Part shown: positions 30,353 through 62,245 of the stretch, piece by piece | Position numbering within the stretch: position 1 is the stretch's first letter | How the letters are laid out: each line of letters begins with the position of its first letter | Assembly: GCF_038806765.1 (NCBI RefSeq) | Contig: NZ_CP152389.1 | Coordinates: forward strand, 3,844,001 to 3,908,000 | DNA length: 64,000 nucleotides | Origin: Mucilaginibacter sp. CSA2-8R | GTDB lineage: Bacteria > Bacteroidota > Bacteroidia > Sphingobacteriales > Sphingobacteriaceae | Direction of reading: 5' to 3' | Notes under the pieces: generated by a model | Database searches by the model: none | The model's input: only the letters and a program-made list of their open reading frames with translations | What the model was told of the DNA's origin: nothing | Program-made: the position numbers and the translations under genes

Positions 30353-30426
30353 GGAGTGGTAGTTCAGCTGGTTAGAATACATGCCTGTCACGCATGGGGT
30401 CGCGGGTTCGAGTCCCGTCCATTCCG
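30353..30426 (+). tRNA. tRNA-Asp (GTC)
   Basis: A 74-nt cloverleaf. The acceptor arms GGAGTGG and CCATTCC pair over 7 bp with one G-T, the D arm is GTTC/GAAT, the anticodon stem CATGC/GCATG carries the loop CTGTCAC with anticodon GTC at 30387-30389, and the T loop is TTCGAGT. The discriminator base is G and CCA is not encoded. Its 3' end is the integration site of the island, and the integrated copy keeps the tRNA intact. Confidence 0.95.
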
Positions 30427-30427
30427 C
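30406..30427 (+). repeat. attL: tRNA-Asp 3' end, 22-bp direct repeat
   Basis: The 22 bp from the T arm to just past the discriminator base are identical to 55868-55889. The left copy belongs to the functional tRNA; the right copy is a fragment without the rest of the tRNA. This is the usual signature of tyrosine-recombinase integration into a tRNA gene, and a tyrosine recombinase gene lies 250 bp to the right. Confidence 0.9.
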
Positions 30428-30576: not shown

Positions 30577-30679
30577 AAAACGCTTGTAATGAGCTGCATT
30601 ACAAGCTGTTCACTCAATAAACATCTTGACTGTAAGCAACGAAACTACCACTTTTGTTTTACTTAATTCATCATGCAAC

Positions 30680-32280: not shown

Positions 32281-32282
32281 TG

Positions 32283-34392: not shown

Positions 34393-34613
34393 TTTGCGTC
34401 GAATAATTTATTAACATTTAAATGCTCAGACACGATGGTTGCTTTAAAAAGGTTACTAATCGACGACATTCCTTGGTTACTAAAGTCTTTCAATAAGTAT
34501 ACTCCATTATCAACGCCTGCTATTTTCAAATTATTAAGCTCCATGCTGGCGGGCATTGCTGCTGATAAACATTTCATTGGCTTCTTCTGAAATGATTTCC
34601 AGGAAACGTTCAT
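34389..34613 (-). CDS. Small open frame overlapping the crtY start, uncertain
   Basis: A 74-residue frame whose stop overlaps the crtY start by 4 bp (ATGA), which hints at a real upstream gene. Its N-terminal third overlaps the end of the BCCT transporter gene in another frame and is therefore doubtful; a shorter version starting near 34,541 is possible. No domain is recognised. It may be the tail of a former gene truncated when the BCCT gene was joined here. Confidence 0.25.
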   Translation of the reverse strand: MNVSWKSFQKKPMKCLSAAMPASMELNNLKIAGVDNGVYLLKDFSNQGMSSISNLFKATIVSEHLNVNKLFDAK

Positions 34614-36533
34614 AATGTTTTAACACATCGCTGATTAACTCGTTTTTGGTAAAGTACTGCACGTCATACCCCTCCCGTGCATCTCCGAAAAAGGTTTTTG
34701 GATAGTAAGTTTTCTTCTCTACTACGTCCGGAAGGTTTTTTTCCGTCATCAGGTAATCTGATACGGTTTTGATATGGCATTGCACGCCATAAATAAAATT
34801 GTTTACTACGTTATGCTTGATGACGAGCTCAATCCGGCTTGGACGATGAGTAGAATTAATGCTGACTGCAATGCCATAGGTGTCAAATTCTTGCTTGAGT
34901 TCTGTAAACGCCTCTTTTACCTGACCGTGGATGAATGCATCTACTGCAGCATCATCCTTAAACGATACAATTTGAGTGAGGCGCTCCTTCCAATGCTCGC
35001 CTGACCACGGGATGGTAGATATTGAAAAGTCGCGATCGTAATATTTATAGTCGATCATCAGGCCTTTCATCAGCGACACCACGAAAGACAGCATGATAAG
35101 CGAGAAAGGCAGCGCGGTGATCAGTGTCATGGTCTGTAATGCCTGCAAACCTCCGGCGTTGAGCAGCATGAGCGCTAAAACGGCCAGTAAAACTCCCCAG
35201 AATATTTTTTGCCAGGTTGGAGAATTGTCTGCATTACGGGTAGAAATGCTATCCATCACCAGAATACCCGAGTCTGCAGAGGTCATAAAGAAAATGATAA
35301 TGATGGCGATCACCAAAAAGCTCGAAATGGTCGAGAGTGGCAAATACTCCAGAAAACGGAACATCAGGGCATCTTTGTCACCTACCAAATGGTTTAATAT
35401 GCCATGAGCAACATTTAAATCCAGCCATATAGCGCTGTTGCCAAAAATGGTAAACCAAACGCAATTAAATAAAGTAGGCAATATTAATACAGCTGCTATA
35501 AAAGACCTGATGGTTCGTCCCTTAGATATTTGAGCAATAAAAAGTCCCACAAATGGCGCCCACGAGATCCACCACGCCCAGTACAGGATGCTCCAGTTGT
35601 AAAACCACGGCAGGGTTTCCGCATCGTAAACATGGGTATTAAAGGTGATGTTGAAAAGTTATTGATGTAATTTCCTATCCCGTCGGTAAAGCTACCAATA
35701 AGGTACACGGTTGGACCCAGCGTTAAAACGAACAGCATAAGCACAATGGCTGCAACAATATTAATGTTACTTAGCAATTTGATACCCTTTCCAACACCAG
35801 AGATTGCAGATACAATAGCTAATGATACTAGTATACCTACAATGCCAACTTGGTAACTAAAACTGGTTTGAGGCAACACATGAAGTATTTTCAAACCGGC
35901 ATTAATTTGAACCACCCCAAAACCTAACGTAGTAGTAATACCGAAAAACGTGCTACATAGCGCAAAAACGTCTATAGCATTTACCATTAATCTTTTCTTT
36001 CAGCAATGGGTACAGGCAGCTCCGGAGCGAAAGCGGCAAACGGTACCGGTACGAAAAGTAGGCTAAGCATAAACCTACCAGTCCATATACCGCCCAGGCA
36101 TGAATGCCCCAATGAAAAAAGGTATATAACTGCGCGTTTTTTGCACGGTTGATGTAATGATTATCAGCAAAGGCCTTTGCTGAGTAATGAGACATAGGCT
36201 CGGCGACGGCAAAGTATAACAAACCAATCCCCATCCCTGCGGCAAACAGCATGGCCAGCCACGAGAAAAACGAATACTCGGGTTTGCTATCGTTAGGCCC
36301 TAACTTGATGTTGCCATACTTGCTGAACATCAGATAAATCAAAAAAACAACAAATATGGTAACCGACCAACGTAAATCCAGTTCAAATTCACGAATATAA
36401 ATTCCTTAATCACGTTCAGGACCTGCTCGGTAGGCTGCGGAAAGAAAACAGCCAGCAGGCAAACGCCTATAATAAACGTAAGCCCCGGAACGGTAACACC
36501 TTTATCGAGTGTAGATTTAAGTTTAGTTTGCAT
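34534..36533 (-). pseudogene. BCCT-family betaine/choline transporter, frameshifted
   Basis: A BCCT transporter (glycine betaine, choline or carnitine uptake, sodium or proton driven) with a long cytoplasmic C-terminus as in BetT. The start is ATG 36533. Shifts near 36,385, 35,980 and 35,650 split it into four pieces that together give the whole family fold: AAGMGIGLLYFAVAEPMSHY, FFHWGIHAWAVYGLVGLCLA, and WAWWISWAPFVGLFIAQISK (the BCCT signature region), then FFMTSADSGILVMDS. About 170 C-terminal residues form the cytoplasmic domain. Three independent frameshifts rule out sequencing noise as a likely cause. It fits the osmotic-stress theme of the island but should be dead. Confidence 0.88.
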
Positions 36534-36928
36534 TATCATATATAAGTCATTGCAGCTCAATACCCTACCGCGCTGCCAGGCTTCGGAACCGATCTGAAAA
36601 AGACAGCTACAGTATATGGAAAGCCCCGTTACGGCGGCACAGGTTTTAAAATAATTAGTTAAAGGCGCAGCATCCAATAAAGTCAAAACACCTTAAATTT
36701 TAATACAGGCCGTTTGGTGGTTTCTCGTTAAACCAAACAATGTTTTAACAATAAATCTGTAACACCTGCCTACCGAATATGTTTCTGAGTAAACGCTAAC
36801 GACTAAGTTAAATACAAGGAATAGCAGCCATTTATCGTATTATAGACGCTCTTATAACAAATTAATTTCAATTAAGCATCTTACGCGCTTCATGAATAAA
36901 ACATACATTAAACTACTATTGAATTAAT
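36534..36928. other. Intergenic stretch without recognisable gene
   Basis: This AT-rich gap separates the decayed left part of the island from the intact cargo. The only open frame in it is an upstream extension of the BCCT frame with no coding character. I see no clear promoter or terminator. Confidence 0.5.
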
Positions 36929-37165
36929 ATGAGTTTGAACAATATCAAGTGTCCAAATTGTCAGCATTGGAATTCGGCTGATAGTAAAGCTGACCAACGA
37001 TGCAGCCTTTGTGATGCTTTGCTGGATAGCAGGCAAGTAAATAGAGAAAGCAAGTCTACCGACCATGGCTTTAGTTTTACTGATTCGCTGCCGCCATATG
37101 CGCGTTACGTGTTTTTGGCAATCGTAGCTGCCATTAGCCTGGTAATTGTCATTGCTTTTGCCTGA
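36929..37165 (+). CDS. Zinc-ribbon protein with one membrane segment
   Basis: A 78-residue protein. The N-terminal zinc ribbon has two CxxC pairs, CPNC near residue 9 and CSLC near 30. The C-terminus is a single hydrophobic span (YVFLAIVAAISLVIVIAFA). Such small proteins probably anchor at the membrane facing the cytoplasm, but no function is established. The stop overlaps the start of the next gene (TGATG), so the two are translated together. This is one of the few plus-strand genes of the cargo. Confidence 0.75.
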   Translation: MSLNNIKCPNCQHWNSADSKADQRCSLCDALLDSRQVNRESKSTDHGFSFTDSLPPYARYVFLAIVAAISLVIVIAFA

Positions 37166-37509
37166 TGCATCCAAAATACTGGCTAATTACCTTATGCATT
37201 GTAGGACTAGCGGTGTATTTGTCTGAAAGGGCAAGCCTGGTGCTCCCTACTTTTGTCCGGTTTTACCTCAACGATCTTATCATCGTTCCGCTAACTGCAT
37301 TGGGGACCAGAACGCTGATGCGCTATCTCTTTCGCCTACCAACCTTTATATTAACTTTTGGTGAGGTTTCATATATTGTGCTGTTTTACAGCATTATTTT
37401 CGAGTTGGTGCTACCCTACTTTATGCAACGCTATACATCAGACTATCTAGATGTCATAATGTATGCATCAGGTGGCGCTTTTTACCTTTGGTTTATTAAC
37501 AAAGCTTGA
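37165..37509 (+). CDS. Small membrane protein, three predicted spans
   Basis: A 114-residue integral membrane protein with hydrophobic spans at about residues 5-22, 33-50 and 60-84, plus a possible short one at the end. Similar Bacteroidota proteins are often labelled magnesium citrate secondary transporter, but at this size it cannot be a transporter alone, so I leave the function open. It overlaps the preceding zinc-ribbon gene by 1 bp, and its last 42 bp overlap the 3' end of nhaA on the opposite strand. Confidence 0.7.
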   Translation: MHPKYWLITLCIVGLAVYLSERASLVLPTFVRFYLNDLIIVPLTALGTRTLMRYLFRLPTFILTFGEVSYIVLFYSIIFELVLPYFMQRYTSDYLDVIMYASGGAFYLWFINKA

Positions 37510-38817
37510 AGCCCGCGCTGAATGCTTCAAGATAATGATTCCTGATAACCCCGCAACAATAGAAGCTACCAGAATACCATATTTAGCTTGTTCAATGCGT
37601 TCCGCGTTTTCAAACGCCAGGGAGGAAACGAATAGCGACATGGTAAATCCGATACCAGCCAGGGCCGATACCCCAATGATATGATGCCACCGGGCAGCAT
37701 GTGGCAATTCTGCCACTTTAAATTTGATCAGCAGCCAAGTGAAAGACAGCACTCCCATGAACTTACCTAAGACCAGGCCGCAGATCACACCAATGCTTAC
37801 CGGGTTTATTAATTTATGCACAAAGTCAGCACTGATGGTTATCCCGGAATTGGCTAGTGCGAATAAAGGCATGATGATAAAAGCCACCCATGGATGCAAC
37901 GTTGATTCAATTTTTTGCAGTGGCGTTTGCGCTGCTAAACTTAAACCCTTGATGTGCTCGATGAGTTCATGTTGCCGGGGCGTAGTTAAGGTACTACAAT
38001 CGGGTATTTCCCTTTCAAACTCATCTGACAATTCCCTAAGGCGCGTCGCATAGCGCTGTTCATCCACTCTTCTTTTGGCCGGTATGGTGAATGCGACTAG
38101 AACACCTGCAATCGTTGCATGTACACCTGAGAGCAAAAATCCTACCCAAACCCCGAAGCCCAAAATAAGATAAAATGCCGTATGGCGTATACCCACCGCG
38201 TTTCCTATTATTAAAGCCAATAGAAAGATCCCACCAATCATCAAGGGTCCAAAATGGAGATTATTACTGTAAAAAAAAGCGATCACTAAAACAGCTCCTA
38301 AATCATCCGCTACAGCAAGCGCTGATAGAAATACTTTGACCGATGAAGGAATATGCTTACCCGCCATGGAAAGCAGCGCAAGTGCAAACGCAATATCGGT
38401 AGCCATCGGAATACCCCACCCATGAGCGCCATCACCACCTTTATTAATGAGGGTATAGATCAACGCGGGCACAAGCATGCCACCCAAAGCAGCAACCATG
38501 GGCAATGCAGCTTTTTTTATTGATGAGAGTTCACCTGCCAGAAACTCCCGTTTTAATTCCAGCCCTATCACAAAGAAGAATATGGCCATCAGCCCATCGT
38601 TTAACCATAGGTGCAACGGGTGGCTTAACCGGTCATCACCAAAGCCTACAGAAAAATTGATTTCCCATACATGGTGATAGCTTTCAGCAAAAGGGGAGTT
38701 TACCCAAACAATAGCCAACACGACACCGAAAAGCAGCACCAGACCGCTTGTATACTCTAGATGTATAAACCGGCTTACCGGCTTGATTAAATGATCGATA
38801 GGGGCTTTTGGCGTCAT
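37468..38817 (-). CDS. nhaA: Na+/H+ antiporter NhaA
   Basis: Inner-membrane antiporter that exports Na+ (or Li+) in exchange for two protons, important for sodium and alkaline pH tolerance. The family residues are visible: MATDIAFALALLSM with Asp141, and SALAVADDLGAVLVIAFFY with the Asp171-Asp172 pair equivalent to the ion-binding aspartates of E. coli NhaA. FFFVIGLELKREFLAGEL near residue 80 is also typical. Length (449) is slightly above the usual 390-430, due to a longer loop near residues 255-290 and the C-terminus. The gene is convergent with the small membrane protein and overlaps it by 42 bp. It may share a promoter region with the neighbouring transporters, although I see no clear box in the 79-bp gap upstream. 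Confidence 0.96.
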   Translation of the reverse strand: MTPKAPIDHLIKPVSRFIHLEYTSGLVLLFGVVLAIVWVNSPFAESYHHVWEINFSVGFGDDRLSHPLHLWLNDGLMAIFFFVIGLELKREFLAGELSSIKKAALPMVAALGGMLVPALIYTLINKGGDGAHGWGIPMATDIAFALALLSMAGKHIPSSVKVFLSALAVADDLGAVLVIAFFYSNNLHFGPLMIGGIFLLALIIGNAVGIRHTAFYLILGFGVWVGFLLSGVHATIAGVLVAFTIPAKRRVDEQRYATRLRELSDEFEREIPDCSTLTTPRQHELIEHIKGLSLAAQTPLQKIESTLHPWVAFIIMPLFALANSGITISADFVHKLINPVSIGVICGLVLGKFMGVLSFTWLLIKFKVAELPHAARWHHIIGVSALAGIGFTMSLFVSSLAFENAERIEQAKYGILVASIVAGLSGIIILKHSARASSFVNKPKVKSAT

Positions 38818-38896
38818 GTGTTTATGTTGTTATACAGTTGTTGCAACAGTTGGGATTACGAATAGTGATATAAATTGACCAAGAATAAAGCGGGTA

Positions 38897-40219
38897 TCAC
38901 TGTGTCACCAAGCGAATCTGTTCAGTTCGGTAGCGCACCCGGAGCCATTGCTCCAATTTACTACGATCTGCAGGACGTAAGGCGGTAGCAAAGCTGGCTA
39001 GAATCACCTGCTGGGTATCTCTTTTGGCCGTATCCGGATAACTGATAATCATTTGACTGCGGCCTAAAGACCGCACCGAAGGATAAAGAACTTTTAATTC
39101 TGCTAAAACATTACTATCTGCTACCGCCGGCTTGTTTTTTTGAGCCCTGATTGTATCCTGTGGCTTTTGGGTGCTAAAAACGTCCTCCAGGATACTGGCC
39201 CTGATTTGCGAAAGATCAATTTCCTGTTTGGCATTTAACCCCTGCCGGATCTTGAGTTCTACACCCCGAAGCTTGTAATCATTTAAACGTAACTTTAAAG
39301 AGTCGACCTGTGCTTTATTTAATTCGTCGCCAATCAGCAGCAGGTCAATTTCTTTGCTGTGGCTACCATAACGGTAAGAACGTGACACAACCTGGGTTGA
39401 GGCGAAACGAAACTGCTCATCTACAAATTTACGTGCGCTGGTTTCGAAAAAACTCTTGTCGACAATGCGGTAGGCCATCACGATGCTTGGTATAATGGTA
39501 ATTAATACTAGGGCAATCATATACCGGGTAACCTTGATAGCCGTACGCGGGTTATCAAAATGCTTGCGCTCCAGGTTGAGATACCTAGCTACTAGAAAAG
39601 TAGCTATGGCAATAAAAACACTGTTGATGAAATAGAGGTACAGCGCTCCGATGGCGTAAAGCCAGTTGCCGGTAGCTAAGCCAAATCCGGCAGTACATAA
39701 AGGCGGCATAAGCGCCGTGGCAATAGCTACACCGGGTATAACGTTACTCCTTTCGTTTCTTGAAGCGGCCACCATACCCGCCAGGCCACCAAATAAAGCA
39801 ATAAAAACATCCCAGATTGATGGCGAAGTACGGGCAAGCAGCTCAGACTGCGCCTCATGTAATGGTGTGATGTAAAAATAAACGGTAGAGGTAAGTATAC
39901 TAAACAGTGTAGCGACCAGCAAGTTCTTGCCGCCTCTTTTCACTAGGTCTAAATCATTGATGCCTATACCCAGGCCTACACCCATAACCGGCCCCATAAT
40001 AGGCGATATGAGCATTGCCCCGATGATGACAGCAGTCGAGTTTACGTTAAGGCCGATCGACGCAATAAAGATGGCAAAGATGAGCGCCCACAAGTTTGCT
40101 CCTTTAAAATCAACATTCTTTTTAATGGCTTCAATAATGACTGCTTCTTCTGCCCGGCCTTCCAGCAAACTAAAACGATGACCTATAAAGTTTTTTATAG
40201 CTTTGGTTACTTCTCCCAT
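38897..40219 (-). CDS. DUF389-family membrane protein
   Basis: A 440-residue membrane protein. The N-terminal half carries the DUF389 domain with six or so spans: GAMLISPIMGPVMGVGLGIG near residue 67, then GGLAGMVAASRNERSNVIPG and ATALMPPLCTAGFGLATGN. The C-terminal 180 residues are soluble with repeated alpha-beta pattern (SLKLRLNDYKLRGVELKIRQ). DUF389 proteins are widespread but their substrate is unknown. The gene begins 2 bp after the CPA1 antiporter stop, so the two are almost certainly one transcript and probably translationally coupled. A role in ion or small-solute transport together with the antiporter is an inference from this context. Confidence 0.88.
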   Translation of the reverse strand: MGEVTKAIKNFIGHRFSLLEGRAEEAVIIEAIKKNVDFKGANLWALIFAIFIASIGLNVNSTAVIIGAMLISPIMGPVMGVGLGIGINDLDLVKRGGKNLLVATLFSILTSTVYFYITPLHEAQSELLARTSPSIWDVFIALFGGLAGMVAASRNERSNVIPGVAIATALMPPLCTAGFGLATGNWLYAIGALYLYFINSVFIAIATFLVARYLNLERKHFDNPRTAIKVTRYMIALVLITIIPSIVMAYRIVDKSFFETSARKFVDEQFRFASTQVVSRSYRYGSHSKEIDLLLIGDELNKAQVDSLKLRLNDYKLRGVELKIRQGLNAKQEIDLSQIRASILEDVFSTQKPQDTIRAQKNKPAVADSNVLAELKVLYPSVRSLGRSQMIISYPDTAKRDTQQVILASFATALRPADRSKLEQWLRVRYRTEQIRLVTQ

Positions 40220-40221
40220 AC

Positions 40222-41469
40222 TTATCTCGCTGATTTTTGTTGAAGCTTTTTGGCAACCTTACTGATCGTTAGTCCCTGCACCAAAATAGAAAATACCACC
40301 ACTACATAAGTGATGAGGACAAATTCGTCCCGGTACATTTTGCTGCTTAGTGAAAGGGCCAGTGCCACTGATATACCACCACGTAAGCCGCCCCAGGTAA
40401 GTATCGGCACGGCATGGTCTTCAAACTTTACCCATCGCCTCAATAAACCAACCGGCAGTATTACCGAAAAGAAACGGGCGAGCAACACGACGAGAATAGC
40501 TATCCCCCCAATTAGGAGCAACGTCATGTTCACCTTAATGACTAATACTTCAAAACCGATGAGTAAAAACAAAACGGCATTCAGTATTTCATCAATCAGT
40601 TCCCAAAATTTGCCTAGATAATCACGTGTAATCACCGACATCCCCTCATCTTTAGCTTTGTTACCAGTAATAATGCCTGCTACTACCATGGCTAGCGGGC
40701 CGGATAGGTGCAGGTTGCCAGCAACATAATAACCACCCATCACAATAGCCAGGGTAATTAAAACCTCCACTTTATAATCATCAATAGACTTTAGAGCTAG
40801 AAAGCCTATATAACCTACCAGCGCACCAAAAGCCAGTCCGCCCAAGGCTTCTTGTAAAAAAAGCTTCGAGATTTCTGCAACCGAAACGTCCGTTCCTCCG
40901 GAACGTGCTATTTCTGCAATAGTCACAAAAATCACCACAGCAACACCGTCATTAAACAGTGACTCACCTGATATTTTTAGTTCCAGCGATTCAGGGATGC
41001 GTGCAGCTTTGAGCAGACCTAACACGGCAATAGGGTCGGTTGGCGAGATGAGCGAACCAAAAAGCAAACAATAGACTAAAGGGATATTTAGTCCGAACCA
41101 GCTAAACACCAGCCACATCAGTCCGCCAACCACAGCGGTTGATATCAGTAGCCCGACTGTAGCCATAATCAGTACCGGTAAACGTTGCTGCCATAGCTTT
41201 TGCGCGTTAATGTGTATAGCTCCTGCAAATAATAGAAAACTCAGCATAAAGTCCATCAAAACTTCCTGAAAGTCAATGGAGGATACCAGTTGGACGGCTT
41301 TTTCTGAAAGTAGCGAGTGCGAGTTACCGAAGGTAGCCAACAACAGGGATGCGGCCAGCGACAAGATCATAATGCCGATAGTTGGCGGCCATTTAATATA
41401 ACGGTGGTTAATATAGGCAAATATGGCTGCCAGCATGATGGTAATCGTCAAAATTTCGTTCAAATTCAT
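40222..41469 (-). CDS. CPA1-family Na+(K+)/H+ antiporter
   Basis: A 415-residue cation:proton antiporter with about 12 spans. The CPA1 core motifs are present: LISPTDPIAVLGLLK around residue 140 and GESLFNDGVAVVIFV around 168, where Asn173-Asp174 forms the ND pair typical of electroneutral antiporters. No C-terminal cytoplasmic regulatory tail is present. This is a different family from NhaA, so the cargo combines an electrogenic and a probably electroneutral exchanger. It lies immediately upstream of the DUF389 gene on the same strand (2-bp gap). The ion transported cannot be decided from sequence. Confidence 0.93.
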   Translation of the reverse strand: MNLNEILTITIMLAAIFAYINHRYIKWPPTIGIMILSLAASLLLATFGNSHSLLSEKAVQLVSSIDFQEVLMDFMLSFLLFAGAIHINAQKLWQQRLPVLIMATVGLLISTAVVGGLMWLVFSWFGLNIPLVYCLLFGSLISPTDPIAVLGLLKAARIPESLELKISGESLFNDGVAVVIFVTIAEIARSGGTDVSVAEISKLFLQEALGGLAFGALVGYIGFLALKSIDDYKVEVLITLAIVMGGYYVAGNLHLSGPLAMVVAGIITGNKAKDEGMSVITRDYLGKFWELIDEILNAVLFLLIGFEVLVIKVNMTLLLIGGIAILVVLLARFFSVILPVGLLRRWVKFEDHAVPILTWGGLRGGISVALALSLSSKMYRDEFVLITYVVVVFSILVQGLTISKVAKKLQQKSAR

Positions 41470-41568
41470 TTACATAGCAGGTAAGTGTACGTGGACTAAC
41501 ATTGAATTAAGTCTTGTTGTATAGGGCGGCCATAAATGCCGCTATATCGTGTTTTCAATTTGGGAAAT

Positions 41569-41781
41569 TTACCTTCCTCTTTTATTCAGCGCCAAAAGCA
41601 CGATGCCACCGGCAACTAATAGTCCGCCTGCATAAGGTGGCCAGTTCACGCTTTTTTCTCTGTCCGCCGATATCTGGATGGGGCCGGCATCTACAATCTT
41701 TTCTTTTTGGGTATAAGTAAAGCCTGTCCACATGAGCATAAAGACGCCCAGTACCATTAAAATTATTCCAATGTTTTTCAT
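41569..41781 (-). CDS. Small two-span membrane protein
   Basis: A 70-residue protein with two hydrophobic spans (residues 4-22 and 50-66) separated by a polar loop that contains PIQISADREKSVNWPPYAGG. The compact, Pro-rich loop and good N-terminus (MKNIGIILMVLGVFMLMWTG) support a real gene. It lies between trehalose synthesis (31 bp upstream on the same strand) and the antiporter pair, so it belongs to the same cargo. Function unknown. Confidence 0.7.
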   Translation of the reverse strand: MKNIGIILMVLGVFMLMWTGFTYTQKEKIVDAGPIQISADREKSVNWPPYAGGLLVAGGIVLLALNKRGR

Positions 41782-41812
41782 AATAATGTAGTTTCAAATA
41801 CTATTCTTTTAC

Positions 41813-44035
41813 TTAAAATGTTTGCACAAGGTCGGCAGTTGTACTTAGCCGCTGTAATAACTCATGTACCAGATAAGGTGTAAGCACATTGTGGGCTGCC
41901 AGCGTAGGTTCGTTACCTACTTTGACGGTGAACGCCGCCTTATTGTCGTGTAACACCTTAAACATATCCTCATCAGTCTGGTCGTCGCCGATGCAAAGTA
42001 TAAACTCCGGACTTTGCGGATTGAGCATTTTTTTGACAGCTAATCCTTTGTTGATATTGGCACCTTTTACTTCAATTACCTTGTGCCCGTTTAGCACACT
42101 TAATGTTGACAGATCGACGCTTGCCATCAGCGCATCCAGCAACTGTTTGGCTTTAATGCCCGATAACGCTAAGTCGGCTTTACGGTAATGCCAGGCTACC
42201 GAAAAGTCTTTCTTCTCTATAAAAGATCCAGGGCATTGGTTTAAAAACTGTTCCATCAGCTGTGTTACCTCCGCTAAGGCCATCAAAGCTTCAGGAGCAG
42301 ATCGTGTTTGCCATTCGCCGCCTCGATCCATTATTTTGGTTCCATGTTCAGCAATTAACCCAACCGGTAAATGACCTAGCCAATTTTGCAAAGAAACGCT
42401 GTCTCTCCCCGAAACAATGTACACGCTGTTTTTAGGATCGCTGCCCAGTTTTTTAAGTAGTTGTATAACGATGGGCAAAGGTGCAGCATCGTTGGGGTTA
42501 GCTGCAAACGGCGCTAAGGTACCATCATAATCCAGTAGCAAAAGTCTCTTTTTGGCCTTGTTATACTGCTCAAGCATTTGGGCTTTGGCAAAGTTATCCA
42601 ATAACTGCGGCTCACTTTTTTGCTGTGCATGCCGTACCTCATCAAGTTTAGCAAAAAACGCCTTTGCCCAGGCGACTACGTTGTAAGAACTTATACGGCT
42701 TTGCATTGCCGTCATCCGTTTTTCCTGCTCAGCCGGGCTCATTTCCAAACCGGTACGAATCATGCGGGCGATCTCTTTCCGGTCGTTAGGATTAATGAGC
42801 AACGCCTCGGTCAACTCATGCGCAGCACCGGCCATTTCGCTTAACACCAATACGCCTTGTTTGTCGCGCCGGGAAGCCACAAATTCTTTGGCAACTAAAT
42901 TCATCCCATCCCTCAACGGAGTAATCAATGCTAAATCACAGGCCGTATACAGGCCAAGCAATTCTTCGAAAGATAAGTGTCCATATTGGTAAATGACTGG
43001 CTGCCAGCTTATGTTACCAAACCGGCTGTTAAAGTTGCCGATATACTCGTCAATCAGACTCTTGCGTTCAGCATATTTGCCGATGCTGTCGCGCGAAGGC
43101 ACAATGACCAATGCAAACACGACCTTACCGCGATAGCCCGGATTTTGCACCAAAAACTCGCGGTAGCCTTTTAAACGGTTAAACACACCTTTGGTATAAT
43201 CCAGCCTATCCACCGAAAAAAGTAATTGTTTGTCTTGCTTAGAACGCAGATACTCGGCCCGTTTTGATAATACTTCAAGATTAGTAGATGCATGGTTGAA
43301 GCGTTCAAAATCAACGCCGATGGGAAACGCACCCGTACGTACATTTCTACCCTGCCAATGAATTTCATGCCCTTCGTTACGCACCTTGAGTACTTTTTTA
43401 ACACAGTTGATGAAGTGCGACTGATAATCTTCGGTGTGAAAGCCAATTACATCTGCACCCAGCATACCACTAAGCAACTCTTGCTGCCACTCGCGTGGGA
43501 TAACCCTGAACAGCTCGTATGAGGGGAATGGAATATGCAAAAAGAACCCAATGGTAAGCCCGGGCAATTTTTTACGAAGCATTGCGGCCAATGGCAACAA
43601 GTGATAATCATGTATCCAAACGGTATCGTCGGCGTTTAGTGTTTTGAGTAAGGTTCCAGCAAACTCAGTGTTTACTTTAAGATAAGCGTCGAAATAAGAA
43701 GGCTGATAATCGGCAAATGACGGGAAGTAATGAAATAACGGCCAAAGTACTGAATTGGAAAAACCATTATAATATTGATCGTACTGTTTGGCAGGTATAA
43801 AAAGCGGCTTAAAATCATAGTCGGTGTTAATCGAGTCGGCTGCGGCCTGCCACAATATCTCAGAACATCCGGCCACACCTGCCCATATTTTTTGAGTGAA
43901 ACGGTTATTCTCTTTATTTAAAAATGCACTTACGGCAGTTACTAAACCACCGGAGGCCTGGCGATACGTAATTTTGTCTCCTTGTTTTTCTATAGAAATA
44001 GGCAGCCGATTAGCTACCACAAATAATCTGGACAT
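41813..44035 (-). CDS. otsAB: Bifunctional trehalose-6-phosphate synthase/phosphatase
   Basis: A 740-residue fusion making trehalose from UDP-glucose and glucose-6-P. Residues 1-470 are the GT20 synthase: VVANRLPISI at the start, WAGVAG near 51, WIHDYHLLPLAAMLRKKLPG near 145, and RDGMNLVAKEFVASR near 345. From about residue 490 is the HAD-type phosphatase, with LLLDYDGTLAPFAANP carrying the nucleophilic Asp and CIGDDQTDEDMFKVL near 690. Trehalose is a compatible solute and membrane protectant, so this fits the osmotic and desiccation theme of the cargo. Fused OtsA-OtsB proteins occur widely in Bacteroidota. The gene is followed by the 70-residue membrane protein gene. Confidence 0.95.
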   Translation of the reverse strand: MSRLFVVANRLPISIEKQGDKITYRQASGGLVTAVSAFLNKENNRFTQKIWAGVAGCSEILWQAAADSINTDYDFKPLFIPAKQYDQYYNGFSNSVLWPLFHYFPSFADYQPSYFDAYLKVNTEFAGTLLKTLNADDTVWIHDYHLLPLAAMLRKKLPGLTIGFFLHIPFPSYELFRVIPREWQQELLSGMLGADVIGFHTEDYQSHFINCVKKVLKVRNEGHEIHWQGRNVRTGAFPIGVDFERFNHASTNLEVLSKRAEYLRSKQDKQLLFSVDRLDYTKGVFNRLKGYREFLVQNPGYRGKVVFALVIVPSRDSIGKYAERKSLIDEYIGNFNSRFGNISWQPVIYQYGHLSFEELLGLYTACDLALITPLRDGMNLVAKEFVASRRDKQGVLVLSEMAGAAHELTEALLINPNDRKEIARMIRTGLEMSPAEQEKRMTAMQSRISSYNVVAWAKAFFAKLDEVRHAQQKSEPQLLDNFAKAQMLEQYNKAKKRLLLLDYDGTLAPFAANPNDAAPLPIVIQLLKKLGSDPKNSVYIVSGRDSVSLQNWLGHLPVGLIAEHGTKIMDRGGEWQTRSAPEALMALAEVTQLMEQFLNQCPGSFIEKKDFSVAWHYRKADLALSGIKAKQLLDALMASVDLSTLSVLNGHKVIEVKGANINKGLAVKKMLNPQSPEFILCIGDDQTDEDMFKVLHDNKAAFTVKVGNEPTLAAHNVLTPYLVHELLQRLSTTADLVQTF

Positions 44036-44171
44036 GTGATCCTTTTTTTAGAATTAAATAAAATATTGCATTACTGCCCCGTTAAGCGCAGATACACAAT
44101 TATCGTGTAAGCCTGTTGACGGGCTGTAGCAATGGTTCAATAAAAAGAAGCTTTTAAGCTTTATTTAAGCG

Positions 44172-44564
44172 TCAAAAAGGAGTTAAACGAAATATATGTA
44201 GATCGGGCGACGGTAGCCAATGGGCAGCTATCGTACAGAATACCGTTTTACCAGGATGCTTTTCATCAAATAATATAGTGCTGTAGATGCACTGTATTAT
44301 AGCCCAATATGCTTTAACCACCAGTCTATTACAGCCAAGGTAACGCAGATTATAGCTAATTTTTTCGGTGGTACTATCATCGTCTTCGACTTCCCGACCA
44401 TAATTACGCAACATCCTCAACAACGTGTTCGGAATGTGACGCAGGGCTGTTTTATGTAAAATCTGCTGATGGCCGTTTTCAAAAACATTACTCCCTTGAA
44501 AGCAGACTAAAGCGTTGATTAGCCAAGCAGAAAGCAGGATGTATATCAGTCTTTTTAACGGCAT
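44172..44564 (-). CDS. Hypothetical protein with N-terminal membrane anchor
   Basis: About 130 residues from ATG 44564. The N-terminus (MPLKRLIYILLSAWLINALV) is a membrane anchor or signal peptide; the rest is unrecognised, with four cysteines and a QCIYSTILFDEKHP stretch. It sits between the mscS pseudogene and the trehalose gene on the same strand. Coding is moderately likely but not proven by any known domain. Confidence 0.4.
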   Translation of the reverse strand: MPLKRLIYILLSAWLINALVCFQGSNVFENGHQQILHKTALRHIPNTLLRMLRNYGREVEDDDSTTEKISYNLRYLGCNRLVVKAYWAIIQCIYSTILFDEKHPGKTVFCTIAAHWLPSPDLHIFRLTPF

Positions 44565-44702
44565 ATTTTCTAATATAACAAAATAAAGTGTCTTTAGCAA
44601 TATTGCGGTAAGACAATTGACCTTTATAGACCTTTTTTTAATTTATTATCCAGATTGCATTCAGTATTTTTATGGTCGGCAGTCGTCACTTCGCTGTAAC
44701 TT

Positions 44703-46564
44703 CTACTCTTCCCTGCGAAACCGGAAGGAGGGCGCCTTATAATTTGGGGGCAGATAACTGGCTGGCGTTGTAACCTGATTGCCATCCCTAACGGCCCGGT
44801 AATGTGGTGACATGATTTCTACGCCCGCCTGATTAAAGCAGTCCTGGATGTTAGCATGCAGGCTGGAGTAGATCAAGGCTTGTTTACCTGGTTCTTTGGT
44901 ATAGGCATTGATATTGTAACTGACGTAATAATCTTCCAGGCCGGTCTGCAGTACAAAAGGAGCTGGGTCCTTTTCGATAAATGCAGTCTGAGTGGCCGCA
45001 GTAATAAGCAATTCATAAACCTGTCGCCAGGGCACACCATAGCCAATAGTTACCGTTGTGTGAATTATTAAGCCCGCAGCTGCAGCTTCACTGGTGTAGT
45101 TGGTGGTATGGCTCGACATGACGGTTGAATTGGGTATAGATACCAGCTCATTTTTGATCGTCTTGATCCGGGTCACCAAAACTGTCTTTTCAACGACATC
45201 TCCCGTAACCTCGCCAATTTTTACCCGGTCGCCAATGCGGAAGACACGCATGTAAGTTAATACCAGGCCGGCTACCACATTGCTGAGTGCCCCGGCTGAG
45301 CCAAACGTAAAAAGGACACCCATAAATACAGAAACGCCTTTAAATATGGGCGAATCGGATCCCGGCAGGTAAGGAAAAATCACGATGAGCATAAAGGACA
45401 TGATCAGCACGCGGATGATTTGATAAGTCGGACCTGCCCAATCGGCATAAAAGCCGGGGATATGCAACTGCCCCCGCTCGATTTCGGTCTTAAGGTACCG
45501 GAAGACACGAAGGATATACCGGAAAATTACCAATAGGACAATGACTGTAATCAAGTTAGGCACATAATTCCATACGGCGTGAGCAATGCGCGTCACCGGG
45601 GTAAGGATGTAGTTCAGCAACCGGCCGGACAAATCCCGGGTGAACGGAAATATGCCAAAAAGTACAGGCAAGGCCAGGTACAAAACCAGTAATATTAAAA
45701 TCCATTTGGTGAGCAAGAGTAAACCGTTGATTACAGAAAGCTGCTGACCGGCATTGAAAACTTCATAATTTTTAATCTTCAAGCCATTAATATGCCTGCC
45801 CTGCATGGCGGTTAAGCGCCTATAAAGTAAACGAAACAGGCGGTTTACACCGTAAATAATCAGGTTACTACAGCAATGACCAGCATTGCCAGGATTGCTT
45901 CTCTCAGAAGCGTTTGCCATCCAGTTTCATCCCGGTACTGCCGCACTGCAGAGGTAATTTTGCCGCGAAAGCTCTCGGCCAGCTGGTCGCGGGACATGTT
46001 TTGCCATAGGGCATCCTGCCCAGATACCGAAACCAGCAAATTACTGCCATAAACAATATCTGTACTAAACTCCGCCTGGCTGAGCTGAATCGAATCTGGA
46101 CTGAAGTCATGGCGTTCCGCGAGATTCCCGATCCGCTTGCTGATCGCCTCGGCTCGGTCCTGAGCCGTAAAACTACCTTGCCGGACATAAATATGGAACA
46201 GCGTGTCCTGCAAAATAATTACAGGGAAGCCTTTCACGAAACGGCGCAGAGAATCAATTTCCTTTTTTTGACGTACTGTTTTAAGTGAGTCGTGCTGGCG
46301 CAAGGCATTAAGTTGGCTTTCGAGCACTGACTTTTCAAGGTTACCCGTTCTGCTAAGCTTAGCTACGCGGGCTTCCAGTTCCGCCCGTTTCAGTGAGTCT
46401 GCAAGCCGTTCTGCGGCATAACGCTGTACCCGGACCATTTGGTTATCCAGGCGGGCATTGTGAATGGAGTCATTTTGGACGCGGGCACTATCTTGAGGAA
46501 AGGCGGCAGCCACGGTCAAATACTGACTAAAAAGCCATAGCGCAATAACCCATTTTTTCATCAT
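44703..46564 (-). pseudogene. MscS-type mechanosensitive channel, one-base frameshift
   Basis: A large MscS-family channel (about 620 residues if intact) with an exported N-terminal domain. From ATG 46564 a signal peptide and a 230-residue periplasmic segment with coiled-coil character (repeated LADSLKRAELEARVAKLSR-like helix) read to a TGA at 45860-45862. One base earlier in the frame the sequence continues as LIIYGVNRLFRLLYRR, the first span, then the MscS core with GVLFTFGSAGALSNVVAGLV and RIGDRVKIGEVTGDVVEK. A single lost C in an ACCCTG run would explain the break, so it may be recent or even an assembly error. As it stands the full channel is not made. A separate intact MscS lies at 49090-49995. 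Confidence 0.85.
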
Positions 46565-46802
46565 GATTAATATAGTATTTCCGGCAAAAAATCTAACTCA
46601 ATGGATAGGTATAAGTTATAAATCTGTAGGAATGTTTGATACAAAGTTTTGCAGGAAGCCAAAGCCCTGGAGTCTTGCTTGCGAAAATCGCAGGTTCGCC
46701 GGTAAGCTATGAAGACCGTTGAGGCAAGGTCATTCAGAACGGTACCTCTACTATAAAACTATTCGAGGATGCTGTGTTCTATAGTACAGTAAGTAAACGC
46801 AC

Positions 46803-48038
46803 ATGACAAAAATTATTAAATGGCTGCGTAAGCATTATTCTAAAATCATCAGCAGCATAGCCTTTTACCCGGCCATTATTGCGGTCAGCTTCCTGCTGAT
46901 CTCCATAATCATGCTTAAAATTGATTTTTCCGAAGCGGGGAAAAGCTTTAAACAGCAACTGAGCTGGCTGAGTTTGAAAGATGCCAGTACAGCCCGCTCC
47001 ATATTGACGACGATCGCAGGAGGCATCATTTCGCTCACCGTATTTAGTTTTTCCATGGTGATGATTATTCTGAACCAAGCCGCCTCGCAAATGAGTAACC
47101 GCATTTTGAACAGCATGATCGAGAATCGTTTCCAGCAGATCATTCTCGGAACTTACATTGGCACGATTGTCTACGCGCTGTTTTTACTCAGCACCATCCG
47201 CGATATCAGCACTGGTATCTACGTACCTGCCATAAGCATATATACCCTCATCTTGCTTACCATCGTGGACATTTTTCTATTTATTTATTTTCTAGACTAC
47301 GTTACCCAGACGGTAAAATTTGAGACGGTTATTAAACGAATACAAACGCAAACGCTTAAGGCGATGGAGCAGCAGTTTTGTACGGATACCCCAGCTACTT
47401 TTGAGCTGGCCCAGCTGTTCATTAAACTTCCGGCAGACGAATCAGGCTATTTTCAGGGATTTGATCAGCCTCGCCTGCTTGATCTATTGACCGCTCACCA
47501 GCTGGAAATTGTCTTTCTGCATGCCAAGGGAACCTATCTCATCAAAGGAGCGGCCTTAGCTCAAGTTTATGGAACAACCGCAATACCTGAAAAACTTAGC
47601 AAAGAATTATATCTATGCATTGATTTTTACAGCGGGCAACCTATTGAACGAAACCCTGAGTATGGTTTCCGGCAACTGTCCGAGGTCGCCATCAAGGCAC
47701 TCAGCCCGGGCATCAATGACCCGGCAACGGCTGTATTGAGCATTCATGCATTAACGGACCTGTTTGCTTACCGGCTGAATCATTGCTTGCCGCGGCTAAT
47801 CAACGACGATCAGGGCAAGCGGAGAATCAGCCAGAAAATTGCTGAATTTGATGCGCTGTTTGAGGATTGCATTTTTCCTATCTGGCAATATGGGAAAGAC
47901 GATCGTTATATTCATCAGGGACTCCAGCAAATGCTGGAGCAGCTTCGCTGCGTTCCCGGGCGACACCAGCAAGCGGACGTTTTTCAAGCATTAGAACGCC
48001 GGATGCAAACCGGTCCTAAGGCATCCGGCGGGACGTAA
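46803..48038 (+). CDS. DUF2254 membrane protein
   Basis: A 411-residue membrane protein of family DUF2254. Four spans occupy about residues 15-175; the motif region SILTTIAGGIISLTVFSFSM and VMIILNQAASQMSNRIL near residue 75-100 is typical. The C-terminal half is soluble and includes YGFRQLSEVAIKALSPGIND, the most conserved stretch. Function is not established; members often lie near stress genes. It is transcribed divergently from the frameshifted mscS gene, with a 238-bp gap, and converges on the universal stress gene (41 bp between stops). Confidence 0.85.
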   Translation: MTKIIKWLRKHYSKIISSIAFYPAIIAVSFLLISIIMLKIDFSEAGKSFKQQLSWLSLKDASTARSILTTIAGGIISLTVFSFSMVMIILNQAASQMSNRILNSMIENRFQQIILGTYIGTIVYALFLLSTIRDISTGIYVPAISIYTLILLTIVDIFLFIYFLDYVTQTVKFETVIKRIQTQTLKAMEQQFCTDTPATFELAQLFIKLPADESGYFQGFDQPRLLDLLTAHQLEIVFLHAKGTYLIKGAALAQVYGTTAIPEKLSKELYLCIDFYSGQPIERNPEYGFRQLSEVAIKALSPGINDPATAVLSIHALTDLFAYRLNHCLPRLINDDQGKRRISQKIAEFDALFEDCIFPIWQYGKDDRYIHQGLQQMLEQLRCVPGRHQQADVFQALERRMQTGPKASGGT

Positions 48039-48079
48039 TCTACAGCGCTCTTGCTGAGTAACGCGTACTTGTGCTTTTT

Positions 48080-48997
48080 TTAGTAAGCGACCTGCAGACG
48101 CCTTTTCCCGACGCGGTCTGTTAACAGTGAAGTCGTATTTCCAGCACGTTGCGATGGATTAATACACAGTACTGCGGCATCCGGGTTGCGGAGCATTTTT
48201 TGAGTAAAATTTCCAAAAAAGTACTCTTTGATATTTCTTTGGGTGTCTGCTTCTATGACCACCAGGTCAGCCACCTCCGTCCGGCATATCGAGGCCAGCG
48301 ATGCTGCCCGGTCATGTGTATAATGCTGCCCGGTCGTTACCGACCTGGCCATTCCGTCCAACCGAAACTTAACCCGCGCTGAAAACCGGTTCAAACTACT
48401 GGAAATGTCCGCATCCGCGCGCTCAATCAGGCTGATGACCGATACATCCGCATTATTCTTTTCAGCAATCTGACGCGTCAGCGGGAATTTAGACATCGGT
48501 GTACCTGTACTTTGCACAGGATAGATAATGTGCTGGAAGCGGTCTACAGACTTGTCTGCGGGAACGGTAAGCACATGACTGTTCGTGGCTTGCAGCAATT
48601 GATAAGGGAGACTGTCGAAAAGGTAGGACGCATCGGTCGCACTGGGCGACAAGCCAAGGATCGTCAAGTCAACCGGGTTTTGCTGCACCCATTCTTTGAT
48701 CATCAGGTTACGGTTCCCCGTTACCGTATACAGCCGGCAATCGACCCGGTGAGCGGCTTTAATCGAGGCTGTCAATTTTTCGAGCAAATAAGCATCTTTT
48801 TCCATCACCTCAGCTGCCATCAACTGAACGGCCGTCAGATCGCCGACCTTTGGGTAATAAAACATGATATCACTGACATATAACAAATGGAGCCTGGCCT
48901 GATGTCTGCGTGCCATATTGATGGCCGTATTTAAGGCATTGAATGAGGTATCAGAAAGGTCGATAGGAATTAATATATCTTGAAGGATAGCTTTCAT
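48080..48997 (-). CDS. Tandem-domain universal stress protein
   Basis: A 305-residue cytoplasmic protein with two Usp folds. The first (about 1-145) opens with ILIPIDLSDTSFNALNTAIN and contains VDLTILGLSPSATD. The second (about 150-285) ends with VADLVVIEADTQRNIKEYFF and GNFTQKMLRN, followed by AAVLCINP. Tandem UspA proteins support survival under starvation and oxidative or osmotic stress. The GxxG(9)S/T nucleotide-binding glycines are weak, so ATP binding is uncertain. It lies between DUF2254 and the MscS/permease pair within the stress cargo. Its promoter region is the 90-bp gap before 48,998. Confidence 0.9.
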   Translation of the reverse strand: MKAILQDILIPIDLSDTSFNALNTAINMARRHQARLHLLYVSDIMFYYPKVGDLTAVQLMAAEVMEKDAYLLEKLTASIKAAHRVDCRLYTVTGNRNLMIKEWVQQNPVDLTILGLSPSATDASYLFDSLPYQLLQATNSHVLTVPADKSVDRFQHIIYPVQSTGTPMSKFPLTRQIAEKNNADVSVISLIERADADISSSLNRFSARVKFRLDGMARSVTTGQHYTHDRAASLASICRTEVADLVVIEADTQRNIKEYFFGNFTQKMLRNPDAAVLCINPSQRAGNTTSLLTDRVGKRRLQVAY

Positions 48998-49089
48998 AAT
49001 CTGTAAAATTTAATGGTTTGACAATAGGACTTTGCAGAACAAGCCCGGTGAGTATCCTCAATATACAGAAAAAAAAGTACAATACCAAA

Positions 49090-49995
49090 TCAGGCTTTGC
49101 TTCCGGGGGTGCTCATGTCCTGCCACGAAACGCCGCCTTTGATGCCAAAGTCTAACGTTCTGATGGGGAACGGAATCATGATGTCATGATCATCGAATGC
49201 CTTTTTAATACGCACGATGGCTTCGCTGCCGACTTGCAAATAAGCTGGTTGCTCGGGTGAGTCCACCCACAAACGCAGAACGAAGTTGATGGAACTGTCT
49301 CCGAATTCCCGGAAAAAGAAGGTAGTTTGTTCATCGGGACACAGCCCGGGTAAGTCCTGCACCGCTTGCAAGGTAACCGTTCTTACTTTCTCCAGATCAT
49401 CACCGTAAGAAATGCCCACGTTTAAATCAAAGCGGCGCTTTCCCAACAGGGAAAAATTTTCAATAGGATTCTGAAAAACATCTTTGTTCGGTACGATCAC
49501 CATCTGCCCCTGAAATGTACGAATCACCGTATCGCGCAGATTAATCTCTTCCACCTTGCCCATATAATCTTTAATTTTCACCACATCTCCCTCACTCAAA
49601 GGACGACGTATGGAGATCAGTACACCTGACATAAAGTTGGCTGCAATATCCTGAAAAGCGAAAGCAAGAGCCAATCCTGCGATTCCTGCACCGGCTAATA
49701 TCGTAGTCACCGCTTTGTCCAGCTGGAGAACGCTCAGAGCGATGAAAATAAAAACGCCCAGCAAGAAAATATAAAGGAAAGAACCAAAAAGGTTGTCCAG
49801 CGTCTGGTTATGGATAAAACGCCGGAGTAGCTTTTTGATCGCGCCACTCACTGACCGGGCGATCAAAAAGCCGACGATCAGGATGATGACGGCTAAAGCG
49901 ATATTGGGCAGTAATCTTACCAGTTCTCTCAGCCATAGCGAAAGTTTGTCGGTAATCAGCTGATAGGCACGGTCAATATTCATACTTATTATCAT
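49090..49995 (-). CDS. MscS-family mechanosensitive channel
   Basis: A 301-residue small-conductance mechanosensitive channel that releases solutes on hypo-osmotic shock. Three spans are expected in residues 20-135; the pore-lining region includes ILAGAGIAGLALAFAFQDIA near residue 90, and the beta domain reads GDVVKIKDYMGKVEEINLRD near 138 and VIVPNKDVFQNPIENFS near 166. The length and order match E. coli MscS (286 residues). It overlaps the upstream permease gene by 1 bp (TAATG) if ATG 49995 is used; ATG 49983 is the alternative. The close coupling suggests co-regulation of the two membrane proteins. Confidence 0.95.
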   Translation of the reverse strand: MIISMNIDRAYQLITDKLSLWLRELVRLLPNIALAVIILIVGFLIARSVSGAIKKLLRRFIHNQTLDNLFGSFLYIFLLGVFIFIALSVLQLDKAVTTILAGAGIAGLALAFAFQDIAANFMSGVLISIRRPLSEGDVVKIKDYMGKVEEINLRDTVIRTFQGQMVIVPNKDVFQNPIENFSLLGKRRFDLNVGISYGDDLEKVRTVTLQAVQDLPGLCPDEQTTFFFREFGDSSINFVLRLWVDSPEQPAYLQVGSEAIVRIKKAFDDHDIMIPFPIRTLDFGIKGGVSWQDMSTPGSKA

Positions 49996-51743
49996 TACAT
50001 GATTAGTCTTACACCACCAAGTTCTGAAACATGGTAAGGAAATTTGTTACCGGGAGCACCAATGAACATGAAGTTTTTAGGGATGTTCCATTGATGGGAT
50101 AGTTCATCGATAAGCTCCGGTCCGAAGGTGCCTTCGATTTCTACAAAATCAATATCGATATCCGGATACGCGCGGTCCAGCACTTCCACATCCCTTTTTA
50201 AATGCAGATTATTACTTTGCGCATTAGCGACATGCACAATTTTGATTCGCTTGGTGGCTTCGTTCTCTTCCACATAGATCATCACCCGGTTTAACGCCGC
50301 AATGTTGTCGCCACGAGTAAAAAATACCAGTTCCTGAGCATTCAGCCTGACGAGAATCCGGTACGGGCGGACGTATTTTTTAATCCATTGTTTTAACCGT
50401 CCTCCGGTGTTATTTACCGCATAAATGAGCCAACGGGCGATTTGGGCACGGTTCAGCATCAACAGAATGATTAGGGCGGCAGGGAAAAGGTATTTAACAA
50501 AAACATAGAAAGACGGAAGATTGAGCCGCATATTCCCTAAAAAAGCAGCCAGAATGAATCCAACAGCCAAAATTACCGAAAAAAAGGATGCCCGCTCGGG
50601 GCGAGGCAGTTTGGTACGCTTGACCTTAAGCAACAGATTGCCGATACCAAATAACGCCATGACCAGCAAAAAGGAAAAGGTATATACGCCCGCCAGGCTA
50701 GCCAGATCGCCGCGCGTTACCAGCAATATAGATACGCACAGCAAAAAAAATCCGATTACAATCCGGTAATTGACGCCCCTGCGATTTTTAGCCAGAAAAA
50801 AATTGGGCAGTATCCGATCCAACGTGATCCGCTCTGCCAAGCCCGTCACGCCGACATAAGACGTCAGTACGGCACCACTCAGTACCAGTACAGCATCAAT
50901 TACAATGACATAGCTTAGCCAGCCGCCGCCGACTCTCTCGCCCATAAATGACAGCAGTGATTCCTGATGCCCGCTGATTTCGGCCATTGGAAGTACGGCG
51001 AGCGCCAGCAGTGCAATGACCGGATTAAAAAAACTGACCAGCCCCCACATATTGCGCAACGTTTTTGGAAACACCCCAGGCTGTTGTTCCTCCACAAAGT
51101 TGGCAGAGCTTTCAAAACCGGAAATACCCAGCATAGCTGCGGAAAAACCGAGGAACAAGGCCGTATAGATACCTCCTGTAGCGACTGGAAGATGCCAGTT
51201 CAGCACTAATGCTTCCGTTCCATTTTTGAATAAATACCAACAAGCCATGAGCACGAGTAATGACAGGGTAGCGATATGCCCGATGAAGATGATTACTGCC
51301 ACATAAGCGGACTCTCCGATGCCAATGATGGTCAGCATCATAAAGATGACCAGAATCAGAATAGTTGCGGGCAGCAGCGGCAGATCCTGTACAATATCAC
51401 GAAAATAGAACATCGCCTCATAGGCAGAAATGACAGCGGTGGCCATGTAGGACAAAATAGTCAGGCATGCGGCGAAAGACGCCGTTCGCTTAGAAGCGGT
51501 ATTCAGCAGCACGTTATAAGCGCCGCCGTTCAATGGCAGGGCACCAACTACCTCCCCATAAATTTTGCGGAAAAGAAAGAGCACCAGTGCAACCACTAAT
51601 AATGATATCCAGGCATATTGACCAGCATAAGTAATGGTCAGGGCCGATACATATAAGCAGGAGGAGCTGATATCGTTGCCGGATATGGCCGTAGCCTGAA
51701 GTTCATTTAATTGGTGCAGGTTAGCTTTGTTTTCACTCATCAT
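49995..51743 (-). CDS. APC-family amino-acid permease with extra C-terminal domain
   Basis: A 582-residue membrane protein. The first 430 residues form the APC core with about 12 spans: ELQATAISGNDISSSCLYVS near residue 15 and GEVVGALPLNGGAYNVLLNT near 65 are the usual first-helix and second-helix features, and AAMLGISGFESSANFVEE near 215 the sixth-helix one. The last 120 residues (from about 460) are a soluble alpha-beta domain (RILVRLNAQELVFFTRGD and KRIKIVHVANAQSN) that could resemble a Usp fold. Substrate is probably an amino acid or amine, but not defined. It is 1 bp from the MscS gene, so a solute-uptake plus release pair is plausible. Confidence 0.88.
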   Translation of the reverse strand: MMSENKANLHQLNELQATAISGNDISSSCLYVSALTITYAGQYAWISLLVVALVLFLFRKIYGEVVGALPLNGGAYNVLLNTASKRTASFAACLTILSYMATAVISAYEAMFYFRDIVQDLPLLPATILILVIFMMLTIIGIGESAYVAVIIFIGHIATLSLLVLMACWYLFKNGTEALVLNWHLPVATGGIYTALFLGFSAAMLGISGFESSANFVEEQQPGVFPKTLRNMWGLVSFFNPVIALLALAVLPMAEISGHQESLLSFMGERVGGGWLSYVIVIDAVLVLSGAVLTSYVGVTGLAERITLDRILPNFFLAKNRRGVNYRIVIGFFLLCVSILLVTRGDLASLAGVYTFSFLLVMALFGIGNLLLKVKRTKLPRPERASFFSVILAVGFILAAFLGNMRLNLPSFYVFVKYLFPAALIILLMLNRAQIARWLIYAVNNTGGRLKQWIKKYVRPYRILVRLNAQELVFFTRGDNIAALNRVMIYVEENEATKRIKIVHVANAQSNNLHLKRDVEVLDRAYPDIDIDFVEIEGTFGPELIDELSHQWNIPKNFMFIGAPGNKFPYHVSELGGVRLIM

Positions 51744-53457: not shown

Positions 53458-53501
53458 GTCGTCAATTTCAAAAAAGTAAATTACCCCGGTCGGAATATCA
53501 T

Positions 53502-55867: not shown

Positions 55868-55889
55868 GTTCGAGTCCCGTCCATTCCGC
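55868..55889 (+). repeat. attR: 22-bp copy of the tRNA-Asp 3' end
   Basis: Identical to 30406-30427. Only the T arm and 3' acceptor strand of the tRNA are present here, with no 5' half, so this is not a gene but the right boundary of the integrated island. The chromosome resumes directly after it. Confidence 0.9.
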
Positions 55890-57458: not shown

Positions 57459-57480
57459 CGTCACGGTTGCTTTCAAATCA

Positions 57481-60249: not shown

Positions 60250-60262
60250 GACAGGGGTTAAT

Positions 60263-62243: not shown

Positions 62244-62245
62244 GG

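Follow-up and report, generated by a model that had tools for sequence, protein, structure and literature searches.

A genomic island at tRNA-Asp in Mucilaginibacter sp. CSA2-8R with a candidate accessory module for K+, turgor and cation homeostasis

An island at tRNA-Asp and its gene content

We analyzed a stretch of 64,000 nucleotides (hereafter the window) from the complete 5.34 Mb chromosome of Mucilaginibacter sp. CSA2-8R. Among named organisms, Mucilaginibacter species carry the closest relatives of its genes. A tRNA-Asp gene ends in 22 nt, GTTCGAGTCCCGTCCATTCCGC, that recur as a direct repeat on the same strand (Table 1), for a chance expectation of zero matches. The presence of this tRNA 3'-end repeat at both ends supports an integrated genomic island at tRNA-Asp; the preliminary description of this DNA also spoke of an island. 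The island spans about 25.5 kb from the tRNA to the repeat copy and contains the whole gene set of 36929-51743. Its left part is made of decayed genes, i.e., integrase-like pieces, a BCCT transporter and a lycopene-cyclase fragment, and its middle is largely open. The translations also revealed an apparently broken zeta-toxin-type ATPase-like remnant with a small upstream partner (32008-32948). The island also encodes, at 52045-53508, a protein of 487 aa whose C-terminal part is a HEPN domain (Pfam 4e-6). A plasmid search using the module gave no match, and none of the relatives searched for an empty site had the syntenic tRNA-Asp locus. In one genome (G069, locus L245), the genes of the right flank (56322-63928) are kept at 73-84% identity without the island and also without the tRNA.

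Table 1. Features of the island, with positions in the window
Feature	Position	Strand	Length or basis
tRNA-Asp at the left island end, site of integration	30353..30427	+	
attL-like repeat, 3' end of tRNA-Asp	30406..30427	+	22 nt
Tyrosine-recombinase-like integrase remnants adjoining the tRNA, two pieces	30626..31744	+	translation reading and position
Decayed BCCT betaine/choline/carnitine transporter, pieces in several frames	34534..36686	-	
NhaA Na+/H+ antiporter, ADDLGA aspartate pair	37468..38817	-	449 aa; Pfam
DUF389 membrane protein	38897..40219	-	440 aa; Pfam, NCBIfam
CPA1 cation/H+ antiporter	40222..41469	-	415 aa; Pfam, NCBIfam
m70, small membrane protein	41569..41781	-	70 aa; ORF
OtsA-OtsB fusion (trehalose-6-phosphate synthase/phosphatase)	41813..44035	-	740 aa; Pfam, NCBIfam
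o142, small secreted/membrane protein, C-terminal FRLTPF	44172..44600	-	
Large MscS channel gene, frameshifted (45860-46564 + 44703-45920)	44703..46564	-	Pfam
DUF2254 membrane protein	46803..48038	+	Pfam
Universal stress protein (Usp)	48080..48997	-	305 aa; Pfam
Small MscS mechanosensitive channel	49090..49995	-	301 aa; Pfam
KimA-like transporter, APC superfamily, LeuT fold and C-terminal cytosolic domain	49995..51743	-	Pfam AA_permease_2
attR-like repeat at the right island end, second copy of the tRNA-Asp 3' end	55868..55889	+	22 nt

Families were assigned by Pfam, with NCBIfam curated profiles in addition, and Pfam confirmed all those previously named within 36929-51743. The OtsA-OtsB fusion scores above the cut-off of the NCBIfam bifunctional equivalog, and the nearest solved relatives of CPA1 are Na+/H+ exchangers. 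The several tiny membrane proteins reported earlier do exist as ORFs (36929-37165, 37165-37509 and 41569-41781), and none matches a Pfam family; o142 of the window matches no Pfam or NCBIfam family. The length of the Usp makes its description as a tandem plausible, but Pfam scores a single Usp domain.

Both strands carry module genes, which form at least two transcription units. Downstream of OtsBA come m70, CPA1, DUF389 and NhaA in the same orientation, an arrangement suggestive of a second transcription unit. Both gene couplings proposed earlier were found: the TAA stop of the KimA-like gene and the ATG start of the small MscS gene share one base (TAATG, at 49995), and CPA1 and DUF389 are separated by 2 nt on the same strand. 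It was also correct that all genes but one are intact, the decayed ones lying just outside the span. The exception is the large MscS gene, split over two frames at around residue 230. Its halves match, in different frames, residues 29-229 and 232-612 of an intact 628-aa protein of M. lacusdianchii, and its relatives, of 623-642 aa, are unbroken. The broken large MscS fits a partial decay of the module. Elsewhere in the genome there are three further MscS genes. The other NhaA of the host chromosome is split over two frames (G000:C1:703542-704784), and hence the island may provide the sole intact NhaA of the genome.

Gene neighbourhoods in Mucilaginibacter and across Bacteroidota

To describe the distribution of the module, we used two anchors, DUF389 and the transporter gene of 49995-51743, here called KimA-like. 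Among 150 Mucilaginibacter genomes, including our own, DUF389 is found in 21 and the KimA-like gene in 10. This patchy presence points to repeated gain or loss. DUF389 is present in 9 of the 10 genomes with a KimA-like gene vs 12 of the 140 others (Fisher p 3e-8, relatedness being ignored), and the two genes are sometimes far apart on one chromosome (G151, G145). In the stretch around the 21 DUF389 loci, CPA1 occurs in 15, directly adjacent and on the same strand in 14, NhaA in six, an APC-like gene in five and OtsBA in four.

Gene composition varies among all relatives. A clustering of at least five of the families had been put forward as a sign of a conserved islet. The genome of one relative (G066) carries five of them within 20 kb (NhaA, DUF389, CPA1, OtsBA and Usp), and M. 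limnophilus and Pedobacter JY14-1 carry four together with the KimA-like gene; the pattern does not extend phylum-wide. M. limnophilus shares seven genes with the window, arranged as APC-o142-OtsBA-m70-CPA1-DUF389-NhaA; six of the seven, around OtsBA-NhaA, match the order of the window. M. lacusdianchii kept the other half, i.e., the KimA-like gene, MscS, Usp, DUF2254, m70 and the large MscS, while Pedobacter JY14-1 has NhaA, DUF389, OtsBA, two MscS and APC together. In relatives, m70 adjoins CPA1, OtsBA, DUF389 or MscS.

Three further observations concern these neighbourhoods. An o142 ending in FRLTPF or FRLSPF lies just upstream of OtsBA in four genomes (window 44172-44600, L006 8982-9404, L007 11099-11755 and L014 1904-2299). 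A GH15/trehalase-like gene, read as two ORFs (L006 16486-18541), comes after the module in M. limnophilus, so trehalose making and breaking may sit side by side there. A three-gene RND efflux set is found at most about 10 kb from DUF389 in four genomes of the genus (L006, L008, L010 and L014).

Relatives of the KimA-like protein occur in Bacteroidota and in a few Deltaproteobacteria-labelled MAGs. We surveyed 77 KimA-like loci outside Mucilaginibacter with a reach of 8 kb, and compared them with 40 control windows. MscS was found in 24 loci, DUF389 in 11, CPA1 in 9 and Usp in 11, vs 0, 0, 0 and 1 of the controls, a comparison that ignores relatedness and is unevenly sampled, since 45 of the 77 loci are from Flavobacterium. 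Outside Mucilaginibacter, MscS lies near the KimA-like gene in 9 groups, often directly 3' of it. The co-directional 3' arrangement, frequently at a spacing of 5-60 nt, is seen in Mucilaginibacter, Pedobacter, Arcticibacter, Flavobacterium, Kaistella, Chryseobacterium and MAGs. Two Kaistella species have APC-MscS-MscS-DUF389-CPA1 on a single strand. In a Bacteroidales MAG, an Ion_trans voltage-gated-type channel with a zinc-ribbon tail is encoded between the KimA-like gene and MscS (L077 11733-12548).

The survey anchored on DUF389 covered 44 phylum-wide loci from 43 genera, with a reach of about 8 kb and 40 control windows. Any partner was found in 9 of the 44 loci vs 3 of the 40 controls, leaving 35 loci without one, and two or more partners in 2 of 44 vs 0 of 40. 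Across the phylum DUF389 thus usually occurs by itself, and the module is an accessory set of genes assembled in some lineages. The idea of a Bacteroidota islet therefore holds in part: clustering in relatives beyond chance is supported, with a limited scope, and there is no fixed content shared by the phylum.

The tie between DUF389 and CPA1 in Mucilaginibacter is one of gene position only. A fold search with DUF389 gave no usable match (best query-normalised TM-scores below 0.32, with a weak model of pLDDT 67 and pTM 0.54). An internal repeat was considered and rejected, because the real halves barely outscore reversed controls. In the open-access literature we found no functional study of DUF389, and some of the matches to this name were false, actually referring to DUF3893 or DUF3892.

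These data bear on whether the genes belong together at all. Membrane and stress genes could gather in island hot spots with no joint function, each being kept or lost separately. The variable composition, the usual isolation of DUF389, the distance between KimA-like and DUF389 genes in two chromosomes and the partial decay of the island would all fit such a loose collection. On the other hand, the KimA-like-MscS and CPA1-DUF389 pairs recur across orders, with short gaps and on the same strand, and co-occurrence holds even for genes that are not adjacent. We thus regard a loose collection as doubtful, though it deserves serious consideration.

Identity of the transporter encoded at 49995-51743

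The product of 49995-51743 was first described as an amino-acid permease, and it matches Pfam AA_permease_2 at 2.5e-58. Yet KimA itself scores as AA_permease_2 (PF13520), and hence the label is not decisive. With a profile of 27 transporter relatives, the best solved relative is KimA (E 2.4e-8), followed by CAT4 (9e-4). The AlphaFold model (pLDDT 82) contains a KimA-type cytosolic domain at its C-terminus. In Foldseek, KimA structures take the first three places and align with the model along the entire chain, including that domain; cation-chloride cotransporters and then amino-acid transporters come next. The superposition on KimA covers 581 aligned columns including the C-terminal domain, whose placement is uncertain (rmsd 18).

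We matched residues to those of KimA using the profile alignment and a separate MAFFT alignment. KimA D36, Y43, T121, S125, E233 and Y377 correspond to D24, Y31, T102, S106, E211 and Y354, which are invariant in 86/86 relatives. Of these KimA residues, E233 serves proton coupling, while T121, S125 and Y377 bear on affinity. In KimA, K+ uptake is abolished by D36A/N, Y43A and E233A/Q and lowered by T121A, S125A and Y377A (PMC6994465). The residues at the Y118 and N237 positions are identical to those of KimA, with a single N-to-S change at the latter among the 86 relatives. Serine occupies the T230 and D117 positions; KimA T230A and D117 mutants show wild-type-like growth at low K+ (PMC6994465). 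Of the six K+-uptake residues, none of nine amino-acid permeases paralogous to this protein in the genome has more than one; all nine lack the D24 and Y31 pair of TM1, and they show in TM1 a GxG-type motif that is missing here. A complete Kup of this genome keeps all six residues and differs at the Y118 and N237 positions. The genome already has two Kup genes, and on the host chromosome a Kup gene adjoins an amino-acid permease gene (G000:C1:1944937-1949178).

Given that KimA is the best match in profile and fold, that the K+-site residues are invariant and that the Pfam label is shared with KimA, we consider that the protein is likely a K+/H+ symporter and not an amino-acid permease. Against this reading, overall identity to KimA is 14-16%, and a glutamate in TM6 is common in proton-coupled APC transporters too. 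Alternatively, the protein might be a genuine permease for amino acids or polyamines, and the region an osmoprotection set pairing solute uptake (amino acids, formerly betaine via BCCT) and release by MscS with trehalose synthesis. The strong AA_permease_2 score, the lower rmsd of the amino-acid-transporter matches over the membrane part and the adjoining decayed BCCT transporter speak for it. We find it unlikely, since the cation-site residues of KimA/KUP are invariant here and absent from the nine permease paralogues, TM1 is without their GxG-type motif, KimA is well ahead of the next solved match, and the Pfam label does not separate the two.

The position of R337, a c-di-AMP contact in KimA, is N, Q, A or S in 86/86 relatives. 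With this contact not kept and serine in place of D117, regulation by c-di-AMP is not indicated. It is nevertheless possible, as the genome encodes a DAC cyclase, even though the R337 contact is missing. KupB has no such contact and yet is still inhibited by c-di-AMP (PMC10284832).

Proposed working and comparison with known systems

The clustering might also reflect common descent within a small number of clades and carry no special meaning, to which the many Flavobacterium loci with one common, partner-free neighbourhood might point. We consider this very improbable, given that partner-bearing KimA-like loci come from 14 genus-level groups, that gene orders differ between groups while partners recur, and that presence is patchy in the genus.

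With some reservation, we favor an accessory module for K+/turgor and cation homeostasis, located on the tRNA-Asp island. This reading builds on the observed gene content, the coupling of the KimA-like and MscS genes, the conserved K+-site residues and the recurrence in relatives. Against it speak the distribution of the genes over both strands and at least two transcription units, the broken large MscS, the 35 of 44 phylum-wide DUF389 loci that have no partner, and the two Kup and three further MscS genes that the genome already possesses. Reading the permease as a KimA-like K+ transporter makes the ion and osmotic interpretation more specific: the module probably centers on K+ and turgor control, which is narrower than a "stress islet". 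In the scheme we propose, with all transport steps taken from family knowledge, the KimA-like proton-coupled transporter would take up K+ and thus restore or raise turgor. The MscS of the overlapping gene would open under membrane tension, letting K+ and solutes leave on down-shock. CPA1 with DUF389, and NhaA, would swap Na+ or K+ for protons and keep pH and Na+ in range, and the OtsA-OtsB fusion would produce trehalose, which would take over from K+ as osmolyte when stress persists. An auxiliary part would fall to Usp and DUF2254. We infer from the families which substrate is carried and in which direction, how the genes are regulated and under which stress they would pay. Similarly, selection may have retained the module as a useful unit, as previously proposed.

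A bolder version, which we hold only tentatively and rate as rather unlikely, is a hitherto undescribed mobile K+-cycling system of Bacteroidota, with a KimA-type importer overlapping an MscS release valve and a CPA1 antiporter whose frequent partner DUF389 would be a novel subunit, either conducting ions or regulatory. A single transferable unit would then set both turgor and pH. Should the K+ reading of the transporter hold, a widespread "amino-acid permease" annotation would become a Bacteroidota family of K+ transporters genetically coupled to a mechanosensitive channel, DUF389 would be linked to cation/proton antiport, and there would be a testable handle on the setting of turgor in Bacteroidota.

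As in KimA of B. subtilis and the KUP K+/H+ symporters, the transporter combines a LeuT-fold membrane domain with a C-terminal cytosolic domain, and retains every residue of the K+ site and of proton coupling other than the non-essential D117, with T230 as S. It differs from KimA by its low identity, the absence of the R337 contact and the overlap of its gene with that of MscS. Stress islands of other bacteria have similar tasks. Among them, the transmissible locus of stress tolerance (tLST), or locus of heat resistance, of Enterobacteriaceae and Pseudomonas is an accessory stress cluster with a cation antiporter, whose core is ClpK, sHsp20, YfdX and HdeD. The island is similar in being an accessory stress cluster with a cation antiporter, and the M. 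lacusdianchii counterpart has an HtrA-type protease. However, the module proteins scanned gave no Pfam match to ClpK, sHsp20, YfdX or HdeD, and the module is built around ion transport and mechanosensitive release. The stress survival islets of Listeria are small accessory clusters with a presumed role in tolerance to salt, acid or alkaline conditions; the likeness is that of a small accessory cluster, with no common gene families established. We found no islet of such content described in the open-access literature. Taken separately, the osmoregulation genes NhaA, CPA1, MscS, OtsAB and BCCT are each standard family members by curated profile. The parts are thus known families, and what differs is that they occur together, with DUF389 and a KimA-like gene, in a single mobile island.
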